From an uncultured candidatus Porisulfidus sp. (GTDB lineage: Bacteria > Pseudomonadota > Gammaproteobacteria > Poriferisulfidales > Poriferisulfidaceae): a stretch of 64,000 nt of DNA. This document shows positions 35,167 through 44,343 of the stretch, piece by piece (positions within the stretch are counted from its first letter, which is position 1; each line of letters begins with the position of its first letter). A program made the translations under genes and the position numbers. The DNA is taken from assembly GCA_958431155.1 (NCBI GenBank), contig OY288106.1, forward strand, positions 1,091,161 to 1,155,160. Reading direction: 5' to 3'. The notes beneath the pieces are model-generated. The model was not told the origin of the DNA. It searched no databases and saw nothing but the letters and a program-made list of their open reading frames with translations.

Positions 35167-38100
35167 ATGCCTTCGACTTTCCGTCTGCTGCTGACACGAC
35201 GGCTCGGACCTTTTTTCTTCACCCAACTGACCGGGGCCTACAACGACAACGTCTTCCGTAACGCGCTGGTCGTCCTGATCACCTACCGCATCACCGAGCT
35301 GGCCGGGTTCGGCAGCGAAGAACTGGTCGCCGCTTCCGCGGGCGTATTCCTGCTCCCTTTCCTGCTGTTTTCCGCCCTAGGGGGGAAACTGGCCGATCAC
35401 TTTCCCCGCCACCGGCTGATCCAACACATCAAACTGGCGGAATGCGCCCTGATGGCGCTGACCTGGATCGGTTTCGCCACCGGGTCGGTCGGTTTTCTGT
35501 TCGTGATCCTTTTCCTGACCGGGCTGCAGTCCGCCCTGTTCGGCCCGGTGAAATATGCCATCCTGCCAAACCTGTTGTCTCGAACCGAACTGCTGGCCGG
35601 CAATGCCTGGGTAGCAGTCGGCACGTTCATCTCCATTCTTGCCGGGAGCCTGACCGGGACTCTTCTGATGGGCGTCCCCGACGCCTCTCTCTGGGTGCCC
35701 GGCATCCTGGTGGTCAGTGCCGCTGCAGGCTACCTGGCAAGTTATCGGATCCCGGCGCAGTCTCCCGGCAACGCCGCGCTACAACTCTCTTTTGAGCCAT
35801 TCAGTGAAACCTCGCGGATCCTGCGCGAAGGCCTGAGCCAGCCGCGGCTGGCCTGGCTGATGCTCTCCATCAGTTGGTTCTGGATGATCGGGGTGGGCCT
35901 GCTTATACAGCTGCCGCTGTTCGTCCGTGATGTACTGGCCGGAAACGAGCAGGCGCTGGCCGGGGCGCTCGCGATTTTCACCATCGGGGTCGGTCTTGGC
36001 GCCTTACTTTGCAATCGCTGGCTTGGCGGTGCGGCTCGGGCGACCTGGGCGCCGTTGGCCGCAGCGGCCCTCGGGGCCGGATTCGTGCTGCTCGGCCTCG
36101 TCCCGCCGGCCGAAGTTCCGCTCCGCGGATTCGATGCGCTCCTGAATGACCCGCAGGCTGTGAGCACCCTTGGAATCCTGCTGGCGGTTGCCGTGGCAGG
36201 AGGCTTCTACGTCACGCCCCTGTACACCATGGTCCAGCAGCGCGCACCGGAAGAACGGCGTGCACGGATCATCGCCTGCAACAACATTCTCAACTCCATA
36301 TTCATGGCGCTGGCCTCGGTGCTGTCCATCCTCATCTTCCAGTCCGGCGGCACCATCGTCACCATGTGGCTGGCCATGGCCGCCACCGCAGCCGCGGCGG
36401 CGTTGATCCTGCTACACATCACGCAGGGCAGTTTCCGCCACATCCTGCTTTGGCCGATCGCCTCGATCATGCTGACTTCGGAACCGCCGCCACCCGGCTC
36501 TCTGGTGTTCGTCCGGCGTGGAAGCGCGTGGGTCGCCTGGGCGCTAGCCGCAACCATTCCCGGCAAACTCGAAATCCATGTTGATCCCTCGCTGCTGCGC
36601 CGCCCCAGCCTGCGCCTGCTGGCCTGCTGGGTTCGCCTGAGGCCGCTGGACCCCTCTGCCTTGGACGACCAATGGCCGGGGGGCGAGGATGAGCCTTCGC
36701 ATATCACGCTGATCTTCCCGGCAGCCGGCCCGAAGGGCGAGGCTTCGCTGCTGGAACTGATGCAGATCGCCCGGCAACGCTCGGGTCGCCCCGTTGAAGT
36801 CGCGCACGTCAGTGACCCGGAACTCTACATGCCCCGCTTCCACCCACGCATTCGGGTAGGGTTCGAGAGTTGTCCGTTGCCGCCCCGTGCGGCCGACGAG
36901 CCCGAAACCATCCGCCGCGACGCCTTGAGGATCTACGACCTGCTGTGCGAACTGGAATACCGGATGCACTGCAAGGAGTGTACGACGCTGCAATCCCTGT
37001 ACGGTGCCGTCCAAAGATTCGGAGGCAATCGCTCCATTCTGGCCGATCTGGAGCGGACTTTGACCTATCGCCAACTGCTACGGGCGATCCACGCCGTCGC
37101 CCAACTGCTTGAGCGCGCGTTACCGAAAACGCAGGACACGATCGGCATCCTGCTGCCGAACGCCGCCGCCATGCCGATCACCTTCTTCGCCACGCATGCG
37201 CTGCAGCGCATCCCGGTCATGCTCAACTACACCGCCGGGCCGACCAATCTCGCCAGCGCCTGCCGCACCGCGGGGCTCACCCACATCGTGACTTCGCGCC
37301 GATTCGTCGAAAAGGCCGATCTCGGAGATCTGGCCGACGCTCTCGCCAAAGACTGCGCCGTGGTGTGGCTGGAAGACCTGAGATCGAAACTGAGCCTCGG
37401 CATGAAGCTTGTCGCCGCTTGGCGCGCCCTGCGCATGCCGCGGGGCGGTGATGCCTCGGACCCTGCCGTGGTGCTATTCACTTCCGGATCGGAGGGTGAA
37501 CCCAAGGGCGTGGTGCTGAGCCACCGAAACCTGCAGCGCAACCGCTGCCAGGTACGCGCGGTGCTCGACCTGACCCCCGAGGACCACCTGCTGCTGTGCC
37601 TTCCGACCTTCCATTCGTTCGCCCTGGGCGTTGGCCTGCTGTTGCCACTGATGTCGGGGCTGCGCTGCACCCTGTATCCCAGCCCGCTGCACTACAAGCA
37701 AATCCCCGAACTGATCCGCAAGCTCGGCATTACCGTGTTCTTCTCCACCGACACGTTCCTGAACGGCTACGGACAGGCGGCAGACCGGGAGGATTTGGAA
37801 AGCCTGCGCCTGATCGTGGCGGGTGCCGAACCGCTCAAGCCGAGCACCTGTAAATTCTGGCAGGAACGCTTCGGGCTGACGGTCCACGAGGGCTACGGGG
37901 TGACCGAGACCTCCCCCGCGGTCAGCGCCAACACGTCTGCATGCAACCGACCCGGGTCGGTTGGACGCCTGATGCCGGAGATCGAGGCGCGCCTGGAACC
38001 GCTGGACGATTCCCGGGACAGCACCGGCATTGTCCGCGGCCGGCTGTTCCTGCGTGGCCCGAACGTGATGTCCGGCTACTGGCTGCCGGGGGAGAGCCGG

Positions 38101-38502
38101 CTTCTGACGCCGCCCGAGGACGGCTGGCACGATACCGGCGATGTCGCCGAATTCGACGATGACGGATTCCTGAGCCTGCACGGGCGGGCCAAGCGCTTCG
38201 CCAAGATCGGCGGCGAGATGGTGTCGCTCGCGTACGTGGAGCAGAAGGTCAGCGAGGTCTGGCCGGAGTACCGCCATATCGTCTGCGCGATCGATCACCC
38301 GACCCGCGGCGAACAACTGGTCCTCATTACCGAACATCCGGAACCGGACCGGGGCGGGCTGAGGCAGGCCCTGGGCGAACAGGGAGTGGCGGAATTGGCG
38401 CGTCCCCGGCTGATCCTGCCGGTCGAGGCCCTGCCGCTTCTCGGCAGCGGCAAACCGGACTTGCGGAAGGCGCAGGAACTGGCGTGCTCGGTGCTACACT
38501 AG
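35167..38502 (+). CDS. LplT-PlsC-Aas fusion: lysophospholipid transporter/acyl-ACP synthetase with degenerate acyltransferase
   Basis: 1111 aa. Residues 1-420 are an MFS lysophospholipid flippase like LplT (TQLTGAYNDNVFRNALVVLI), with about 12 helices. Residues 430-600 align with the PlsC acyltransferase of Aas, but its HX4D site is lost (Asn-His to Arg450-Arg451, Asp to Val456) and FPEGR is FPAAG (517-521). Residues 610-1111 are an acyl-ACP synthetase close to E. coli Aas: FTSGSEGEPKGVVLSH, LPTFHSFALGVGLLLPLMSG and GRAKRFAKIGGEMVSL. Intact family members recycle lysophosphatidylethanolamine. It starts 15 bp after hisI. Confidence 0.9.
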   Translation: MPSTFRLLLTRRLGPFFFTQLTGAYNDNVFRNALVVLITYRITELAGFGSEELVAASAGVFLLPFLLFSALGGKLADHFPRHRLIQHIKLAECALMALTWIGFATGSVGFLFVILFLTGLQSALFGPVKYAILPNLLSRTELLAGNAWVAVGTFISILAGSLTGTLLMGVPDASLWVPGILVVSAAAGYLASYRIPAQSPGNAALQLSFEPFSETSRILREGLSQPRLAWLMLSISWFWMIGVGLLIQLPLFVRDVLAGNEQALAGALAIFTIGVGLGALLCNRWLGGAARATWAPLAAAALGAGFVLLGLVPPAEVPLRGFDALLNDPQAVSTLGILLAVAVAGGFYVTPLYTMVQQRAPEERRARIIACNNILNSIFMALASVLSILIFQSGGTIVTMWLAMAATAAAAALILLHITQGSFRHILLWPIASIMLTSEPPPPGSLVFVRRGSAWVAWALAATIPGKLEIHVDPSLLRRPSLRLLACWVRLRPLDPSALDDQWPGGEDEPSHITLIFPAAGPKGEASLLELMQIARQRSGRPVEVAHVSDPELYMPRFHPRIRVGFESCPLPPRAADEPETIRRDALRIYDLLCELEYRMHCKECTTLQSLYGAVQRFGGNRSILADLERTLTYRQLLRAIHAVAQLLERALPKTQDTIGILLPNAAAMPITFFATHALQRIPVMLNYTAGPTNLASACRTAGLTHIVTSRRFVEKADLGDLADALAKDCAVVWLEDLRSKLSLGMKLVAAWRALRMPRGGDASDPAVVLFTSGSEGEPKGVVLSHRNLQRNRCQVRAVLDLTPEDHLLLCLPTFHSFALGVGLLLPLMSGLRCTLYPSPLHYKQIPELIRKLGITVFFSTDTFLNGYGQAADREDLESLRLIVAGAEPLKPSTCKFWQERFGLTVHEGYGVTETSPAVSANTSACNRPGSVGRLMPEIEARLEPLDDSRDSTGIVRGRLFLRGPNVMSGYWLPGESRLLTPPEDGWHDTGDVAEFDDDGFLSLHGRAKRFAKIGGEMVSLAYVEQKVSEVWPEYRHIVCAIDHPTRGEQLVLITEHPEPDRGGLRQALGEQGVAELARPRLILPVEALPLLGSGKPDLRKAQELACSVLH

Positions 38503-38558
38503 TTTTCAAGGCACCACAACGAATACCGACTCCTTGGGAACGTTCACTGGGAGACGCC

Positions 38559-40070
38559 ATGCGAGAAGTCACACCGCTTTCCGTGGATCTGCTGCTAAGC
38601 GCAGTGGACGTGCTGGCCTCGGTTTTGCTGTTTGGCATCGGGGTCCTGATCCTGGTCGCGATGATGCTCTACATCGTCGACGCCACGCAGACCCGCCATG
38701 CGGTGCGCCGCAATTACCCCGTCATCGGGCGCTTCCGGTACTGGTTCGAGCATCTGGGCGAATTCTTCCGCCAGTACTTCTTCGCCATGGACCGCGAAGA
38801 GATGCCGTTCAACCGGGCGCAACGCTCCTGGATCTACCGCGCCAGCAAGAACGTCACCAACACGCTGCCTTTCGGCTCGACCCGCGACCTGACGCGCCCC
38901 GGCACCGTCCTGTTCGTCAATGATCCCTACCCTGGCCTCAGTCAGAAGGATGCCCGGCCTCCCCCTCTGACCATCGGCCCGGACGCATCCGAACCCTACT
39001 CCAGCGAACACTTTTTCCACATCTCGGCCATGAGCTACGGTTCCATTTCGAACGTCGCCGTCCAGGCGCTGTCGCGTGGCGCGGCCAAGGCCGGATGCTG
39101 GCTTAATACCGGCGAGGGAGGGCTGTCGCCCTACCATCTGGAGGGCGGTTGCGACCTGGTCTTCCAGATCGGCACCGCCAAGTACGGCGTGCGCGACGAA
39201 CACGGTAACCTGTCGAAGGCGCGCCTGCGCGAACTGGCCGAAAACCCGCATGTGCGCATGTTTGAGATCAAGCTTTCCCAAGGCGCCAAGCCCGGCATGG
39301 GAGGACTCCTGCCGCGCGTCAAGGTGACGGAGGAAATCGCCTGCATCCGCGGTATCCCGGCAGGCAAGGCATCGCGCAGCCCACGCCGGCATCCTGAGAT
39401 CGGCAACCCTGCGGAACTGCTGGACATGGTCGCCCGGATCCGCGACCTTACGGGTAAACCGGTCGGCTTCAAGGCCGTAATCGGCTCCGAGCAGATGCTG
39501 GATGACTGGGTCGATGAAATCCTGCGACGGGGCCCTGCGTCCGCCCCGGATTTCATCACCGTCGATGGCTGCGACGGCGGCAGCGGCGCCGCCCCCATGC
39601 CGCTGCTCGACGCGGTCGGGCTACCGCTGCGCGAAAGCCTGCCGATGGTGGTCGACCGCCTGGAGCAAGGAGGCCTCCGCGATCGCGTCCGCATCATCGC
39701 GTCCGGCAAACAGGTCAACCCGTCCGATGTCGCTTGGGCGTTGTGCCTGGGGGCGGATTTCATCTGTTCGGCGCGCGCGTTTATGTTCGCGCTCGGCTGC
39801 ATCCAGGCCATGCAGTGCAATCGCAACACCTGTCCCACCGGCGTCACCACGCACAACCCTCGGCTGCAACAGGGCCTGAACCCGACGGACAAGGCCGTCC
39901 GAGTCGCTCACCTGGCCTGCAATATGGAGGCGGAAGTTGCCATGATCGCCCACTCGTGCGGCGTGGCTCACCCACGTGCTCTGAACCGAACCCATGCGCG
40001 CATCGTGCAGCCCAACGGCCTGAGCGCCTCGCTACACGCGCTCTACCCCATGCCCGCCCGAACCGTCTGA
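38559..40070 (+). CDS. FMN-binding glutamate synthase family protein
   Basis: 503 aa single-domain protein related to the synthase half of GltB. A hydrophobic helix near residues 8-32 (DVLASVLLFGIGVLILVAMM) suggests membrane attachment. FMN-barrel signatures are KLSQGAKPGMGGLLP and TVDGCDGGSGAAPMPLLDAV. A cysteine set, GCIQAMQCNRNTCPTGVT (C-x5-C-x4-C), fits the 3Fe-4S cluster of glutamate synthases. There is no glutaminase domain, so the true reaction is open. The ATG at 38559 follows GGGAG; a longer frame overlaps the previous gene. Confidence 0.85.
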   Translation: MREVTPLSVDLLLSAVDVLASVLLFGIGVLILVAMMLYIVDATQTRHAVRRNYPVIGRFRYWFEHLGEFFRQYFFAMDREEMPFNRAQRSWIYRASKNVTNTLPFGSTRDLTRPGTVLFVNDPYPGLSQKDARPPPLTIGPDASEPYSSEHFFHISAMSYGSISNVAVQALSRGAAKAGCWLNTGEGGLSPYHLEGGCDLVFQIGTAKYGVRDEHGNLSKARLRELAENPHVRMFEIKLSQGAKPGMGGLLPRVKVTEEIACIRGIPAGKASRSPRRHPEIGNPAELLDMVARIRDLTGKPVGFKAVIGSEQMLDDWVDEILRRGPASAPDFITVDGCDGGSGAAPMPLLDAVGLPLRESLPMVVDRLEQGGLRDRVRIIASGKQVNPSDVAWALCLGADFICSARAFMFALGCIQAMQCNRNTCPTGVTTHNPRLQQGLNPTDKAVRVAHLACNMEAEVAMIAHSCGVAHPRALNRTHARIVQPNGLSASLHALYPMPARTV

Positions 40071-40077
40071 ATCCGCC

Positions 40078-41322
40078 GTGGATCTGGTTGTCCTGATTTC
40101 GAGTCTCGCGGGCCTGCTACTCCTGGGCCTGGTGCTGAAGCCCCTCTCCAGCCGCCTGAAGTTCCCATTCGAGGCGCTGTTGCTGCTTCTGGGCTTCGTC
40201 TTCAGCAGTTTGATCATCGATGCCGACCAACTGGGCCTCCACAGCGGCGTGCTGCGCGATCTGGTGTTCTACGTGTTCCTGCCGATCCTGATCTTCTCAG
40301 CCGCCTACAGCATGGATTCACCGAGATTCGGACGGAACCTGTTCGGCATCCTCCTGCTGGCGCTGCCGCTGGCACTGATTTCCCTGGTGTTCACCACTGT
40401 ACTGGTCTATTACGGCATGGGTCATCCGGCCGGGTTTCCGTGGATCGCGGCCCTGCTGACCGGCACCATGCTGATCGCCACCCACAGCCAAGCGCTCCAG
40501 CAGGTGTTCAAGCATCTGAATCTACCTCCGGACCTGCGTACGCTGATCAGGGGCGAGGGCCTACTGAACAACGCATTAGGCATCGTGCTGTTCACCCTGC
40601 TGCTGGCGTTCGCTCTGGAGCCCGACTTGAATTTGGGAGCCCAGGAAATTGCGTTGTACATCGTCTGGGAGGTGCTCGGCGGTGCAATCGTCGGGGTCGG
40701 TATCGGCTTCTTCGCCCTGATCTTCCTGCGGGTGCGGAACCCGTCTCCGCATGAGGTGGCGCTGTTCACCCTGGTGACCGCCTACATGGCCTATCTGGTC
40801 GCGGACTACGTGCTCAACGTCTCCGGCGTCCTGTCCGTGCTGGCGACGGCACTGATCATGGGCCGCACCATGCACCAGGATCTGGATGCTCCGCGGGACC
40901 ATTTCGTGGACGAGTTCTGGCGCCTCATGGCCACCCTAGCCGAATCCATGCTATTCCTCATGCTCGGATTGAGCATCTCGATCGACATCTTCTCCGACCG
41001 CTATTTGGCGATCCTGATCGGCATCGGCGCAGTCATCCTGGCCCGCATCGCTGGACTTGCCCTCGTCATGCCGTTGCTGACCCGGACAAACAAGACATTG
41101 AAGGAGCTGCCGGATCACAACATCCTGTACTTCAGCAGCGCCCGCGGTGCCGTCACCATCGGGTTGGCGCTGAGCGTGCCGATCGAGCTTGACTACTGGT
41201 GGACGATTGAATCCATCGGCTTCGGGGTGGTGCTGTTCTCGATGCTGATCCAGGCTCCCCTGCTGGAATTCTGGCGGCAGAAAAAAATGAAAAAGGCCGC
41301 AGACCCTGCTGGTTTGAACTGA
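40078..41322 (+). CDS. CPA1-family cation:proton antiporter-like protein lacking canonical aspartates
   Basis: 414 aa with about 12 hydrophobic helices. GTG start seven bases after the previous stop. The fold is CPA1 (NhaP/YjcE-like), with the late RGAVTIGLALS motif and ESMLFLMLGLS helix conserved. The helix-4 TDP site reads ATHSQAL (His136 for Asp) and the helix-5 ND motif reads RGEGLLNNAL (Asn164-Asn165). Both ion-binding carboxylates of known antiporters are therefore absent, while Glu160 remains. Function is uncertain: a changed transporter, or a transport-dead protein. Confidence 0.85.
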   Translation: MDLVVLISSLAGLLLLGLVLKPLSSRLKFPFEALLLLLGFVFSSLIIDADQLGLHSGVLRDLVFYVFLPILIFSAAYSMDSPRFGRNLFGILLLALPLALISLVFTTVLVYYGMGHPAGFPWIAALLTGTMLIATHSQALQQVFKHLNLPPDLRTLIRGEGLLNNALGIVLFTLLLAFALEPDLNLGAQEIALYIVWEVLGGAIVGVGIGFFALIFLRVRNPSPHEVALFTLVTAYMAYLVADYVLNVSGVLSVLATALIMGRTMHQDLDAPRDHFVDEFWRLMATLAESMLFLMLGLSISIDIFSDRYLAILIGIGAVILARIAGLALVMPLLTRTNKTLKELPDHNILYFSSARGAVTIGLALSVPIELDYWWTIESIGFGVVLFSMLIQAPLLEFWRQKKMKKAADPAGLN

Positions 41323-41519: not shown

Positions 41520-42632
41520 CTAACCCGCCGGTGCCAGACAATCTTTAAACGATGCTGCCATATTGCGAATAAGTTCGAAGTATGCTCCGGGCCCGCTTTC
41601 GGCAGCAGCCCCTAGAGGGTCGAGAATACCCGCTTTCGCCTGCGTATTTTCGATGATCGTGTCGACGAGGCGCGGCTCGAACTGAACCTCGGCAAATACG
41701 CAGGTTGCGCCGAGTTGACGAACCTTGTCGCGCAGTTCGACGATGCGGCGGACACCCGGCGACTGCTCTGCGCTGACCACAACCGAGCCAACCGCAGTCA
41801 AGCCGAAACGATCCTCGAAATGCCGATAGGCATCGTGGAACACTATAAAAGGCCTGCCGCGCACCGGGGCCACATCCTGGGCGATTTCCATGGTGAGGTC
41901 ATCCAGACGATTGAGAAGTGTCTCGGCATTGGCCGTGTAGGTCTTGGCGTTGGTAGGGTCGGCCTCGGACAGAGTGGTGGCAATCATGCGAACCATCGCC
42001 CCGGCATTCACCGGATCGAGCCAGAAATGCAGGTTGAAAGCAGTATGCTCCTCGTCTTCGTGGGCAACCGCACTTTCGTCTTCGTGGTGTCCATGCTCGT
42101 CATCGGCCTCATGACCGTGGGCCTCCTCCCTTTCCGAGTGTCCTTTTCCTTCGTGATCCGCGTGACCTTCCTCGGCGTCGTGGTCGTGGGCTTCAAAGGC
42201 CCCCCCCTCGCGAAGCGGCCGATGGACGAGGCCGTCTGCTTCGGACAGCGTGACGACGCGGGCGTCGTGCGCAAGCGTACCGATCGCGTTGGCGAGGGAA
42301 GTCTCCATCAATTCGTCAATCAGAAAAACAATGCGGGCGTTCTGGAGAACCCCGGCATCAGAGGGGCGCAGGCTGAAAGTATGTGGCGATGCGGTGCCCC
42401 GCATCATCAGGTGGGGTTCGTCTGTTCCTTCCATGACGGCACTCACCAGCGAGTGCACCGGCTTGATGGAAACAACCACTCCGGCGGTGACATCGGCTGC
42501 CGCCGACCCCGGGATCACGCAGCCCAAAAATGCTGCTGCGGAAAGGGCGGAGAACACGCGGTGGAACGTCGGCGGGAAGCGATTGATGAATGTCATGCGA
42601 ACTGCCGCGACCAAAGATTCCGATTGCACCAT
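41520..42632 (-). CDS. znuA: Zinc ABC transporter substrate-binding protein
   Basis: 370 aa periplasmic zinc receptor. The signal sequence ends near FLGCVIPGSAAADV. Zinc ligands fit GTASPHTFSLRPSD, a histidine- and acid-rich loop (about residues 148-195, HDHDAEEGHADHEG onward) and LHFWLDPVNAG. A C-terminal ECVFAEVQFEP-type helix (CVFAEVQFEPRLVDT) is also typical. I chose the ATG at 42632 because GGGAGG lies seven bases upstream; an alternative at 42596 gives a shorter leader. It is divergent from znuCB across a Zur box. Confidence 0.95.
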   Translation of the reverse strand: MVQSESLVAAVRMTFINRFPPTFHRVFSALSAAAFLGCVIPGSAAADVTAGVVVSIKPVHSLVSAVMEGTDEPHLMMRGTASPHTFSLRPSDAGVLQNARIVFLIDELMETSLANAIGTLAHDARVVTLSEADGLVHRPLREGGAFEAHDHDAEEGHADHEGKGHSEREEAHGHEADDEHGHHEDESAVAHEDEEHTAFNLHFWLDPVNAGAMVRMIATTLSEADPTNAKTYTANAETLLNRLDDLTMEIAQDVAPVRGRPFIVFHDAYRHFEDRFGLTAVGSVVVSAEQSPGVRRIVELRDKVRQLGATCVFAEVQFEPRLVDTIIENTQAKAGILDPLGAAAESGPGAYFELIRNMAASFKDCLAPAG

Positions 42633-42695
42633 ACTTTCCTCCCGTTCAGCGAACTTGCTGCACAGTCTAATGCAACTGAGCCGTGGCAACCACCA

Positions 42696-42718
42696 TAATT
42701 GTTATATTATAACATTAT
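42696..42718. promoter_or_regulatory. Zur box between znuA and znuCB
   Basis: TGTTATATTATAACA at 42700-42714 is a perfect palindrome that matches the core TGTTATANTATAACA known for gammaproteobacterial Zur. It sits in the divergent promoter region, 68 bases from the znuA start and 134 from znuC. Zinc-loaded Zur would repress both genes from here. Confidence 0.85.
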
Positions 42719-42847
42719 GCACAACTAGGCGGCATTATCTCCCGGCATTTTGGCTGTTTCCGTGATTCGGCGAACGTCGGAACAGACAGAATCAGGTTGT
42801 CGTTCATGCCGCAGGGGGTTCCCTGTCACGCCCGTAGAATAGACATT

Positions 42848-43528
42848 ATGGGAGACGACCCGCATACCTGCCCAACACGGCTCGTTGATGCGCGCAATAT
42901 CGGAGTGCGACGCAACAAACGTTGGATCATCCGGCAAGTCGATATCCAGGTGACGCGCGGCGAACTAGTCTACTTGATTGGGGCCAATGGCGCCGGCAAA
43001 TCGACCTGCGTCAAGGCCCTGCTCGGATTAATCCGCATCGATGAAGGAGAGATCGAGCAGGCGCCGGGACTGGAGGTGGGCTATGTCCCGCAGCGGCTAT
43101 CGGTTAGTCCGACACTGCCTCTCAGCCTTCGCCGCCTGGTCACACTGACCGGGCGTTTCTCCGCTCGCGACATTGATGCTGTGCTCGCCGCCGTCGGCCT
43201 GGAGAAACTTGGCGACCCTCCGGTCACGACCCTGTCGGGTGGCGAATTCCAACGGCTGCTGCTCGCACGGGCATTGATCCATCAGCCTGATCTCCTGGTC
43301 CTGGATGAACCGGACCAAGGCGTCGATATCGCCGGTGCTGAAGTGTTCCATGAGTTGATCGAAGAGATTCGCCAAGACCTTGATTGTGGTGTCCTGTTGA
43401 TTTCCCATGACATCAAAATGGTCATGGATGCCGACAGCGATGTGGTGGTCCTGGTGCCCCACGAACATGACCAGCAAAGCCCAGGCGGTGCTGCACAGTC
43501 CGCCGGGCATCACGGCAGCGACGCGTAG
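42848..43528 (+). CDS. znuC: Zinc ABC transporter ATP-binding protein
   Basis: 226 aa ABC ATPase (E. coli 251). Walker A is IGANGAGKST, the signature LSGGEFQRLLLARAL, Walker B LLVLDEPDQG and the H-loop LISHD. A His-rich end (PHEHDQQ and HHGSDA) follows. I chose ATG 42848; frames extend to TTG 42797 without a better ribosome binding site. znuB starts eight bases after its stop. Confidence 0.95.
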   Translation: MGDDPHTCPTRLVDARNIGVRRNKRWIIRQVDIQVTRGELVYLIGANGAGKSTCVKALLGLIRIDEGEIEQAPGLEVGYVPQRLSVSPTLPLSLRRLVTLTGRFSARDIDAVLAAVGLEKLGDPPVTTLSGGEFQRLLLARALIHQPDLLVLDEPDQGVDIAGAEVFHELIEEIRQDLDCGVLLISHDIKMVMDADSDVVVLVPHEHDQQSPGGAAQSAGHHGSDA

Positions 43529-43536
43529 TCAAAGAC

Positions 43537-44343
43537 ATGTTGGACGACTTCTTCGTGCGCGCCTTGCTTGCCGGCATCGGGCTGACGCTCGTCACCGGAC
43601 CGGCGGGATGTTTCGTGGTCTGGCGGCGGTTGGCCTACTTTGGCGAAACGATAGCGCATTCGGCCCTGCTCGGAGTCGCACTTGCCATCCTGATCGACCT
43701 CAATTTGGCGGTAGGCATATTCGCTACCGCCTCCGTGGTCGTGTTGACCATGCTTTACCTTGAACGGCGCGACACGTTGCCGACCGACACCCTGCTCGGC
43801 CTGCTCGCACATGGCGGGCTCGCCCTAGGCCTCGTCATTCTGTCTTTCTTCTCGGATATGAGGATCGACCTGCAGGCACTGCTATTCGGGGACATTCTTG
43901 CCGTATCGCGGGTCGATTTGGCGGTGATCTGGCTGGGTGGCGTAGCCGCACTGGGGGTGTTGTGGTGGATCTGGCGCCCGTTGCTGGCAATGACCGTCAG
44001 CGCCGATCTGGCTACGGTGGCAGGGTTGCGCCCAGAGCGTGCACGTCTGGCGTTCGGGCTTCTCGTGGCGGCAGCCATTGCCGTTTCGATCAAGATCGTC
44101 GGGGTTCTGCTGATCGTCGCGTTGCTGGTAATCCCGGCGGCGACGGTGCGCCGCTTTGCGTCAAGTCCGGAGAAAATGGCGGTCGGTGCCATTTTGGCGG
44201 GCATTGCCGCAGTGGCCGGAGGGTTGTTCGCCTCGGCCGAGTTCGACACGCCGTCAGGTCCCTCTATCGTCGTGACTGCACTGGCACTGTTTGCGGTGAC
44301 TCGCCTACGCCGTCCACGCTCGATCATCAACCGGATACAGTGA
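43537..44343 (+). CDS. znuB: Zinc ABC transporter permease
   Basis: 268 aa, about eight membrane helices; the inner-membrane channel of ZnuABC. Typical motifs are GCFVVWRRLAYFGETIAHSA and VSIKIVGVLLIVALLVIPAA. It ends 17 bases inside the 3' end of the convergent CDF exporter gene, so import and export transcripts overlap. Confidence 0.95.
   Translation: MLDDFFVRALLAGIGLTLVTGPAGCFVVWRRLAYFGETIAHSALLGVALAILIDLNLAVGIFATASVVVLTMLYLERRDTLPTDTLLGLLAHGGLALGLVILSFFSDMRIDLQALLFGDILAVSRVDLAVIWLGGVAALGVLWWIWRPLLAMTVSADLATVAGLRPERARLAFGLLVAAAIAVSIKIVGVLLIVALLVIPAATVRRFASSPEKMAVGAILAGIAAVAGGLFASAEFDTPSGPSIVVTALALFAVTRLRRPRSIINRIQ

Follow-up and report, generated by a model that had tools for sequence, protein, structure and literature searches.

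A CPA1-type protein without its ion-binding aspartates as a candidate membrane partner of a co-encoded glutamate-synthase-domain flavoenzyme

Introduction

Exchange by CPA1 antiporters is held to require two aspartates, and the stretch of DNA analysed here (the window, 64,000 nucleotides of contig OY288106.1 from an uncultured candidatus Porisulfidus sp.) encodes a CPA1-type protein in which both have been replaced. The question raised by this locus is whether such a protein may still exchange cations for protons and, if not, what it may do beside the gene that precedes it:

38484 to 40070, forward strand: operon partner with a PF01645 (Glu_synthase) domain and a membrane segment at its N terminus; 7 bases separate its end from the CPA1 start
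40078 to 41322, forward strand: CPA1-type protein without the ion-binding Asp residues (PF00999; GTG start; 414 amino acids)

The CPA1-type protein and its genomic setting

In a Pfam scan, residues 18-397 match PF00999 with 142.3 bits (gathering cut-off, 26.2), and the Glu and Arg of the CPA1 fingerprint (motif positions 5 and 8) are found as Glu160 and Arg323 in all six genomes of the genus. The scores with the NCBIfam models TIGR00831 (a_cpa1; 149.4 bits) and TIGR00840 (b_cpa1; 126 bits) lie under the curated cut-offs of 279.6 and 251.25, respectively, and the nearest relatives of solved structure, by sequence, are SLC9C1 and AtNHX7/SOS1. As a sequence family the protein is assigned to CPA1, with two exchanger features, Asp3 and Asp7, missing. 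Homology along its length supports an NhaA fold with 13 helices. An AlphaFold2 model computed on the six genus proteins only had a mean pLDDT of 37.4 and was unusable, so that the topology used below is a putative one. A scan of viral_contigs for the protein returned no relative.

The genome was searched for PF00999, CitMHS and MnhG. It contains one other PF00999 protein (L001), a CPA2 protein that retains the Gln-Asp pair and that, from its motif, we take to be of the KefB/C type, and one CitMHS-family protein; among these families, no MnhG-type Mrp subunit was found. The most distant genome of the genus, G005, has an additional, ordinary CPA1 protein (L023).

The surrounding genes provided some observations of their own. 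Across 35167-41322, the nearest kin of locus L026 by pairwise identity are L025 and L028 when the acyl-ACP synthetase gene is compared, L028 for the glutamate-synthase-domain gene and the window for the CPA1 gene; since the kinship of L026 differs gene by gene, an exchange of these genes between species is suggested. The Aas-type protein encoded at 35167-38502 has MFS and AMP-binding domains with no acyltransferase domain reported by Pfam between them, and its acyltransferase part may be degenerate. Downstream, at 41520-44343, the window has its zinc uptake genes (ZnuA, ABC ATPase and permease) side by side, whereas ZnuA of L025 and L028 adjoins a cation-efflux gene, and no ATPase or permease match was found in the stretch.

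The partner gene

The partner retains a C-x5-C-x4-C motif, presumably the 3Fe-4S motif of glutamate synthases, and Pfam reports no glutaminase domain in it. The order of the gene pair is kept in all six genus genomes, and a relative of the partner lies in the fetched stretch of at least 48 of the 65 other rows, a lower bound because most of the stretches span about 1.5 kb per side or less. A literature search found no account of a gene pair made of a CPA1 and a glutamate-synthase-domain protein. In six loci (L033, L034, L035, L038, L040 and L051) a DoxX-like gene lies between the two (the product in L033 is DoxX by scan), and in those lineages the set may therefore be a three-part system. The conservation of residues 40-99 of the partner (membrane and juxtamembrane) within the genus exceeds that in most of 268 relative pairs, a weak and exploratory result that was given no weight, as other windows were less conserved.

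The ion site

The residues at issue, with their codons in the window, are:

40297 to 40299, forward strand: Ser74; Glu in 19 of 24 relatives
40483 to 40485, forward strand: His136, replacing the TDP Asp of the unwound helix (position 3 of the CPA motif); His in four, Asn in one and Asp in one of six genomes
40555 to 40557, forward strand: Glu160 (position 5); kept in six of six
40567 to 40572, forward strand: Asn164-Asn165, replacing the ND pair (positions 6-7), whose Asp is the proton carrier of exchangers; both are Asn in six of six
41044 to 41046, forward strand: Arg323, likely position 8; kept in six of six genus genomes and in 24 of 24 relatives
41143 to 41145, forward strand: Arg356, the late Arg (SSARGA) in the second unwound helix; kept
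41209 to 41211, forward strand: Glu378, close to where the last helix begins; genus-specific (six of six), Gln in 24 of 24 relatives

The initial annotation, made from the letters alone, had read His136 in place of the TDP aspartate and Asn164-Asn165 in place of the Asn-Asp pair, with Glu160 and the late Arg motif retained. Alignment with SLC9C1 bears out the first two assignments, with ATDP opposite ATHS and LLND opposite LLNN, and the conservation of Glu160 and Arg356 agrees with the rest. The ion-pair partner of Glu160, on the other hand, should be Arg323 and not the late Arg356, taking into account the alignment and the position of Arg323, 158 residues past Asn165; the CPA1 segment from Asp7 to the ion-pair Arg averages 156 residues (PMC6181914). 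Beside Arg356, the glycines at 353 and 354 have become Ser or Thr and Ser or Asn, respectively, with Gly354 retained in G005. The position of Ser74 is probably that of PaNhaP Glu73, as judged from the sequences.

The relevance of these places is documented for characterized exchangers. In PaNhaP the ion is bound by Glu73, Asp159, Ser155 and the carbonyl of Thr129, with Asp130 contributing via water; transport was abolished when either Asp130 or Asp159 was changed to serine, raised by alanine at Glu73 and not significantly affected by alanine at Ser155 (PMC4381880). For MjNhaP1, a review reports Asp132 and Asp161 as indispensable (PMC9408914). Asp7 was found in 94% of 6537 representative sequences, and the parts of that study drawn on here do not discuss the exceptions (PMC6181914). 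With both carboxylates replaced in the window protein, the site residues give good support to a loss of ordinary Na+/H+ exchange, which is very probable.

Spread of the loss

Within the genus, Asn165 is present in all six genomes searched, while residue 136 is His in G000, G002, G003 and G004, Asn in G001 and Asp in G005, so that in G001 neither place retains an ionisable side chain. Outside the genus both aspartates are kept in 63 of 65 relatives, the exceptions being L012 (Asp7 replaced by Ser) and L051 (Thr-Glu for the ND pair, with Cys at Arg356), both lone and long-branched. Since Asn165 is constant, Asp136 is gone in five of six genomes and nearly all relatives are intact, neither chance nor sequencing error accounts for the loss. 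The change of ND to NN probably came first and that of TDP afterwards, in a stepwise manner, because position 136 varies within the genus while position 165 is Asn throughout.

Independent losses were surveyed in 369 genomes of the class and 398 of the phylum, along with the orders of G028 (5 genomes), G114 (4), G021 (63) and G376 (23); the ion site was read only in those matches that were fetched as loci, which excludes L055, the one other match in the order of G028. In the order of G114 the two other matches, L043 and L044, carry both aspartates. L012 (G028) and L051 (G114) each also adjoin a glutamate-synthase-domain gene.

The genus is nested, in a 41-row tree, within the clade of glutamate-synthase-linked CPA1 proteins; its neighbour there is L009 from family f5 (support, 96/85), and its stem measures 1.3 changes per column. 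Only the nesting is relied on, because several rows are long and some joins weak. The conserved subgroup that the initial annotation had proposed to look for with a family tree does exist, but as a group confined to one genus and not as a wide family. A CPA1 protein without both aspartates was seen here in this one genus, and the literature search found no account of one.

Selection on the gene and its present location

The CPA1-type gene is under strong purifying selection and is not decaying. Its frame is open in all six genomes, pairwise omega among the five closest ranges from 0.08 to 0.19, and tree-wide GY94 omega is 0.088 with five genomes and 0.093 with six (for the partner gene, 0.079 and 0.074, respectively). 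The sister clades with intact sites yielded 0.052 (f5) and 0.079 (f155), with 0.032 and 0.059 for their partners. The ratio of omega to that of the partner (genus, 1.1 and 1.3; sisters, 1.6 and 1.3) is not higher in the genus, so that no relaxation relative to the partner is apparent. Seven of the 32 columns invariant in 24 relatives have been lost by the five closest genomes (D51Q, R55H, D136H/N, P137S, D165N, G353S and Q378E), and in the partner 4 of 108 clade-invariant columns are lost in all genus members.

The distribution of constraint along the protein was assessed with three ion-site segments (128-139, 157-167 and 350-360). They differ at 0.92 times the rate of the remaining protein in the genus with five genomes and at 0.91 times with six, versus 0.44 in f5 and 0.20 in f155; random blocks reach values as low in 47% and 40% of cases in the genus, and in 3.9% and 0.5% in f5 and f155, respectively. 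The special slowness of the ion-site segments, present in the sister clades, is lost in the genus. The best-conserved block in the genus lies elsewhere:

40813 to 40920, forward strand: residues 246-281, comprising helix 9 with the loop that leads to helix 10

In helix 9 (248-266) the five genomes do not differ, and the six differ at 3.5% (f5, 18%; f155, 29%). Between the window and G005 the block is 86% identical, for 60% over the whole protein, whereas in 454 relative pairs of 52-66% overall identity, which are not independent of each other, it averages 49% with a maximum of 76%, the block itself having been picked after looking. For the loop (262-281) the corresponding values are 85% versus a mean of 29% and a maximum of 69%. 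Synonymous changes at identical residues are not reduced in the block (17/28, 0.61, versus 98/201, 0.49, elsewhere), which argues for conservation at the protein level and against recent DNA exchange. By analogy with the topology of MjNhaP1, for which the link between helices 12 and 13 is placed outside (PMC4381896), loop 9-10 should be cytoplasmic, the helix limits being putative as well.

A proposed membrane partner of the flavoenzyme

The explanation that best accommodates these data, to which we assign a little short of an even chance, is that of an antiport-dead CPA1 protein serving as structural or regulatory membrane partner of the co-encoded glutamate-synthase-domain flavoenzyme. It is favoured because the scaffold persists without the site and selection acts on another part of the protein. 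The ancestor would have been an ordinary exchanger of the ATDP/ND type, whose cation/proton site was lost in the ancestor of the genus. As exchange requires a site at which cation and proton compete for a carboxylate, the removal of such a site would have ended it, with the fold preserved by the Glu160/Arg323 scaffold pair and by strong purifying selection. Selection would now be strongest on helix 9 and the following, putatively cytoplasmic, loop, and the protein would be a membrane partner, a pseudo-antiporter, in presumed contact with the membrane-anchored flavoenzyme. A more specific version is proposed tentatively, namely that the exchanger-derived protein is a non-transporting, non-proton-coupled subunit or regulator of the glutamate-synthase-type flavoenzyme, on which selection has moved to a cytoplasmic docking surface formed by helix 9 and loop 9-10. 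Among the roles first suggested from the letters (channel, transporter for another ion or regulatory relative), the evidence thus leans to a regulatory or structural one, because constraint has moved away from the ion path. Some considerations weigh against the partner reading: co-location would be equally expected if the pair works via transport, as is presumably the case in those relatives whose site is intact; the residues now at the site, being polar (Ser, Asn, His and Thr) and not greasy, would suit a solute path too; and the flavoenzyme, having its own membrane segment, may need no anchor.

Alternative explanations

The strongest alternative, although a somewhat unlikely one, is a retooled transporter or channel through which an anion, an uncoupled cation or a neutral solute would now pass, the last being for instance ammonia for use by the enzyme next to it. 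The changes at the site are to polar residues (E74S, D136H/N, P137S/N, D165N, G353S/T and G354S/N, of which D136 and G354 are unchanged in G005), Arg323 and Arg356 are kept, and the gene is under strong purifying selection. The partner may also need free ammonia, as it has a Glu_synthase domain but no glutaminase domain by Pfam. The presence of His, Asn or Asp at position 136, along with site segments that evolve no more slowly than the rest, would however be odd for a new selective path, and Asn136 in G001 indicates that His is not needed.

That exchange persists, with Glu289, Glu378 or Glu160 replacing the lost aspartates, is judged improbable. Replacement acidic residues were sought over all alignment columns, which brought up Glu378, Glu32 and Glu289. 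Glu289 is found in the five genomes without Asp136 and is Gly in G005, where Asp136 stays, a pattern that would fit compensation; it is however common to the sister clade f5, whose proteins combine it with both aspartates, so that it is not a replacement born with the loss. Glu378 is new and fixed in all six genomes, but from the topology it probably sits where the last helix approaches the outer face, and not at the site. Glu32 would be near the start of helix 2, and none of these three would make a good substitute. In PaNhaP, the counterpart of Glu160 forms the salt bridge and takes no part in coordinating the ion (PMC6181914 and PMC4381880). Other residues supplying the carboxylates had been named at the outset as the finding that would overturn the reading of a lost site, and the sole membrane-embedded candidate, Glu289, does not clearly do so, as it is also present in f5 with its intact site.

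A regulatory or sensor relative acting on a target other than the glutamate-synthase-domain enzyme would equally explain a lost site in a kept fold, but is very unlikely, as the gene pair is old and retained. Least likely of all is gene decay as part of genome reduction in a symbiont, an idea prompted by the small host genome (1.59 Mb) and the long branch to the genus and opposed by the six open frames, an omega of 0.09 with no relaxation relative to the partner, and a block 246-281 more conserved than in any of the 454 comparison pairs.

Significance and comparison with known systems

Here a natural lineage has dropped, probably stepwise and under continued purifying selection, both aspartates that exchange is held to need. 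It provides a ready-made comparison of G005 (Asp136, Asn165), G001 (Asn136, Asn165) and the window protein (His136, Asn165) with intact sisters, which would show what the CPA1 fold is capable of without ion coupling, as well as the purpose of the widespread and unexplained pairing of CPA1 proteins with glutamate-synthase-domain enzymes.

Among known systems, the CPA1 proteins of the NhaP-I/NHE type (NhaP, NHE, SOS1/AtNHX7 and SLC9C1) share PF00999, Glu5 and Arg8 with the window protein, which differs from them in lacking Asp3 and Asp7 and, at 414 residues, any regulatory domain. With the archaeal CPA1 proteins PaNhaP and MjNhaP1, both of solved structure, it has in common the Glu/Arg ion pair, the Asn of the ND pair and homology over most of the length, but the PaNhaP ligands Glu73, Asp130, Thr129, Ser155 and Asp159 (PMC4381880) would correspond to Ser74, His136, Thr135, Gly161 and Asn165, respectively, the match of Glu73 being a probable one. 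The KefB/C-type CPA2 protein of the same genome, L001, shares the superfamily and is not a copy of the CPA1-type gene. The closest comparison is with the glutamate-synthase-linked CPA1 proteins of other gammaproteobacteria, with which the operon neighbour, mostly 31-45% identity and one clade of the tree are shared; 63 of the 65 relatives read at the site retain Asp3 and Asp7, whereas no genome of the genus has both.
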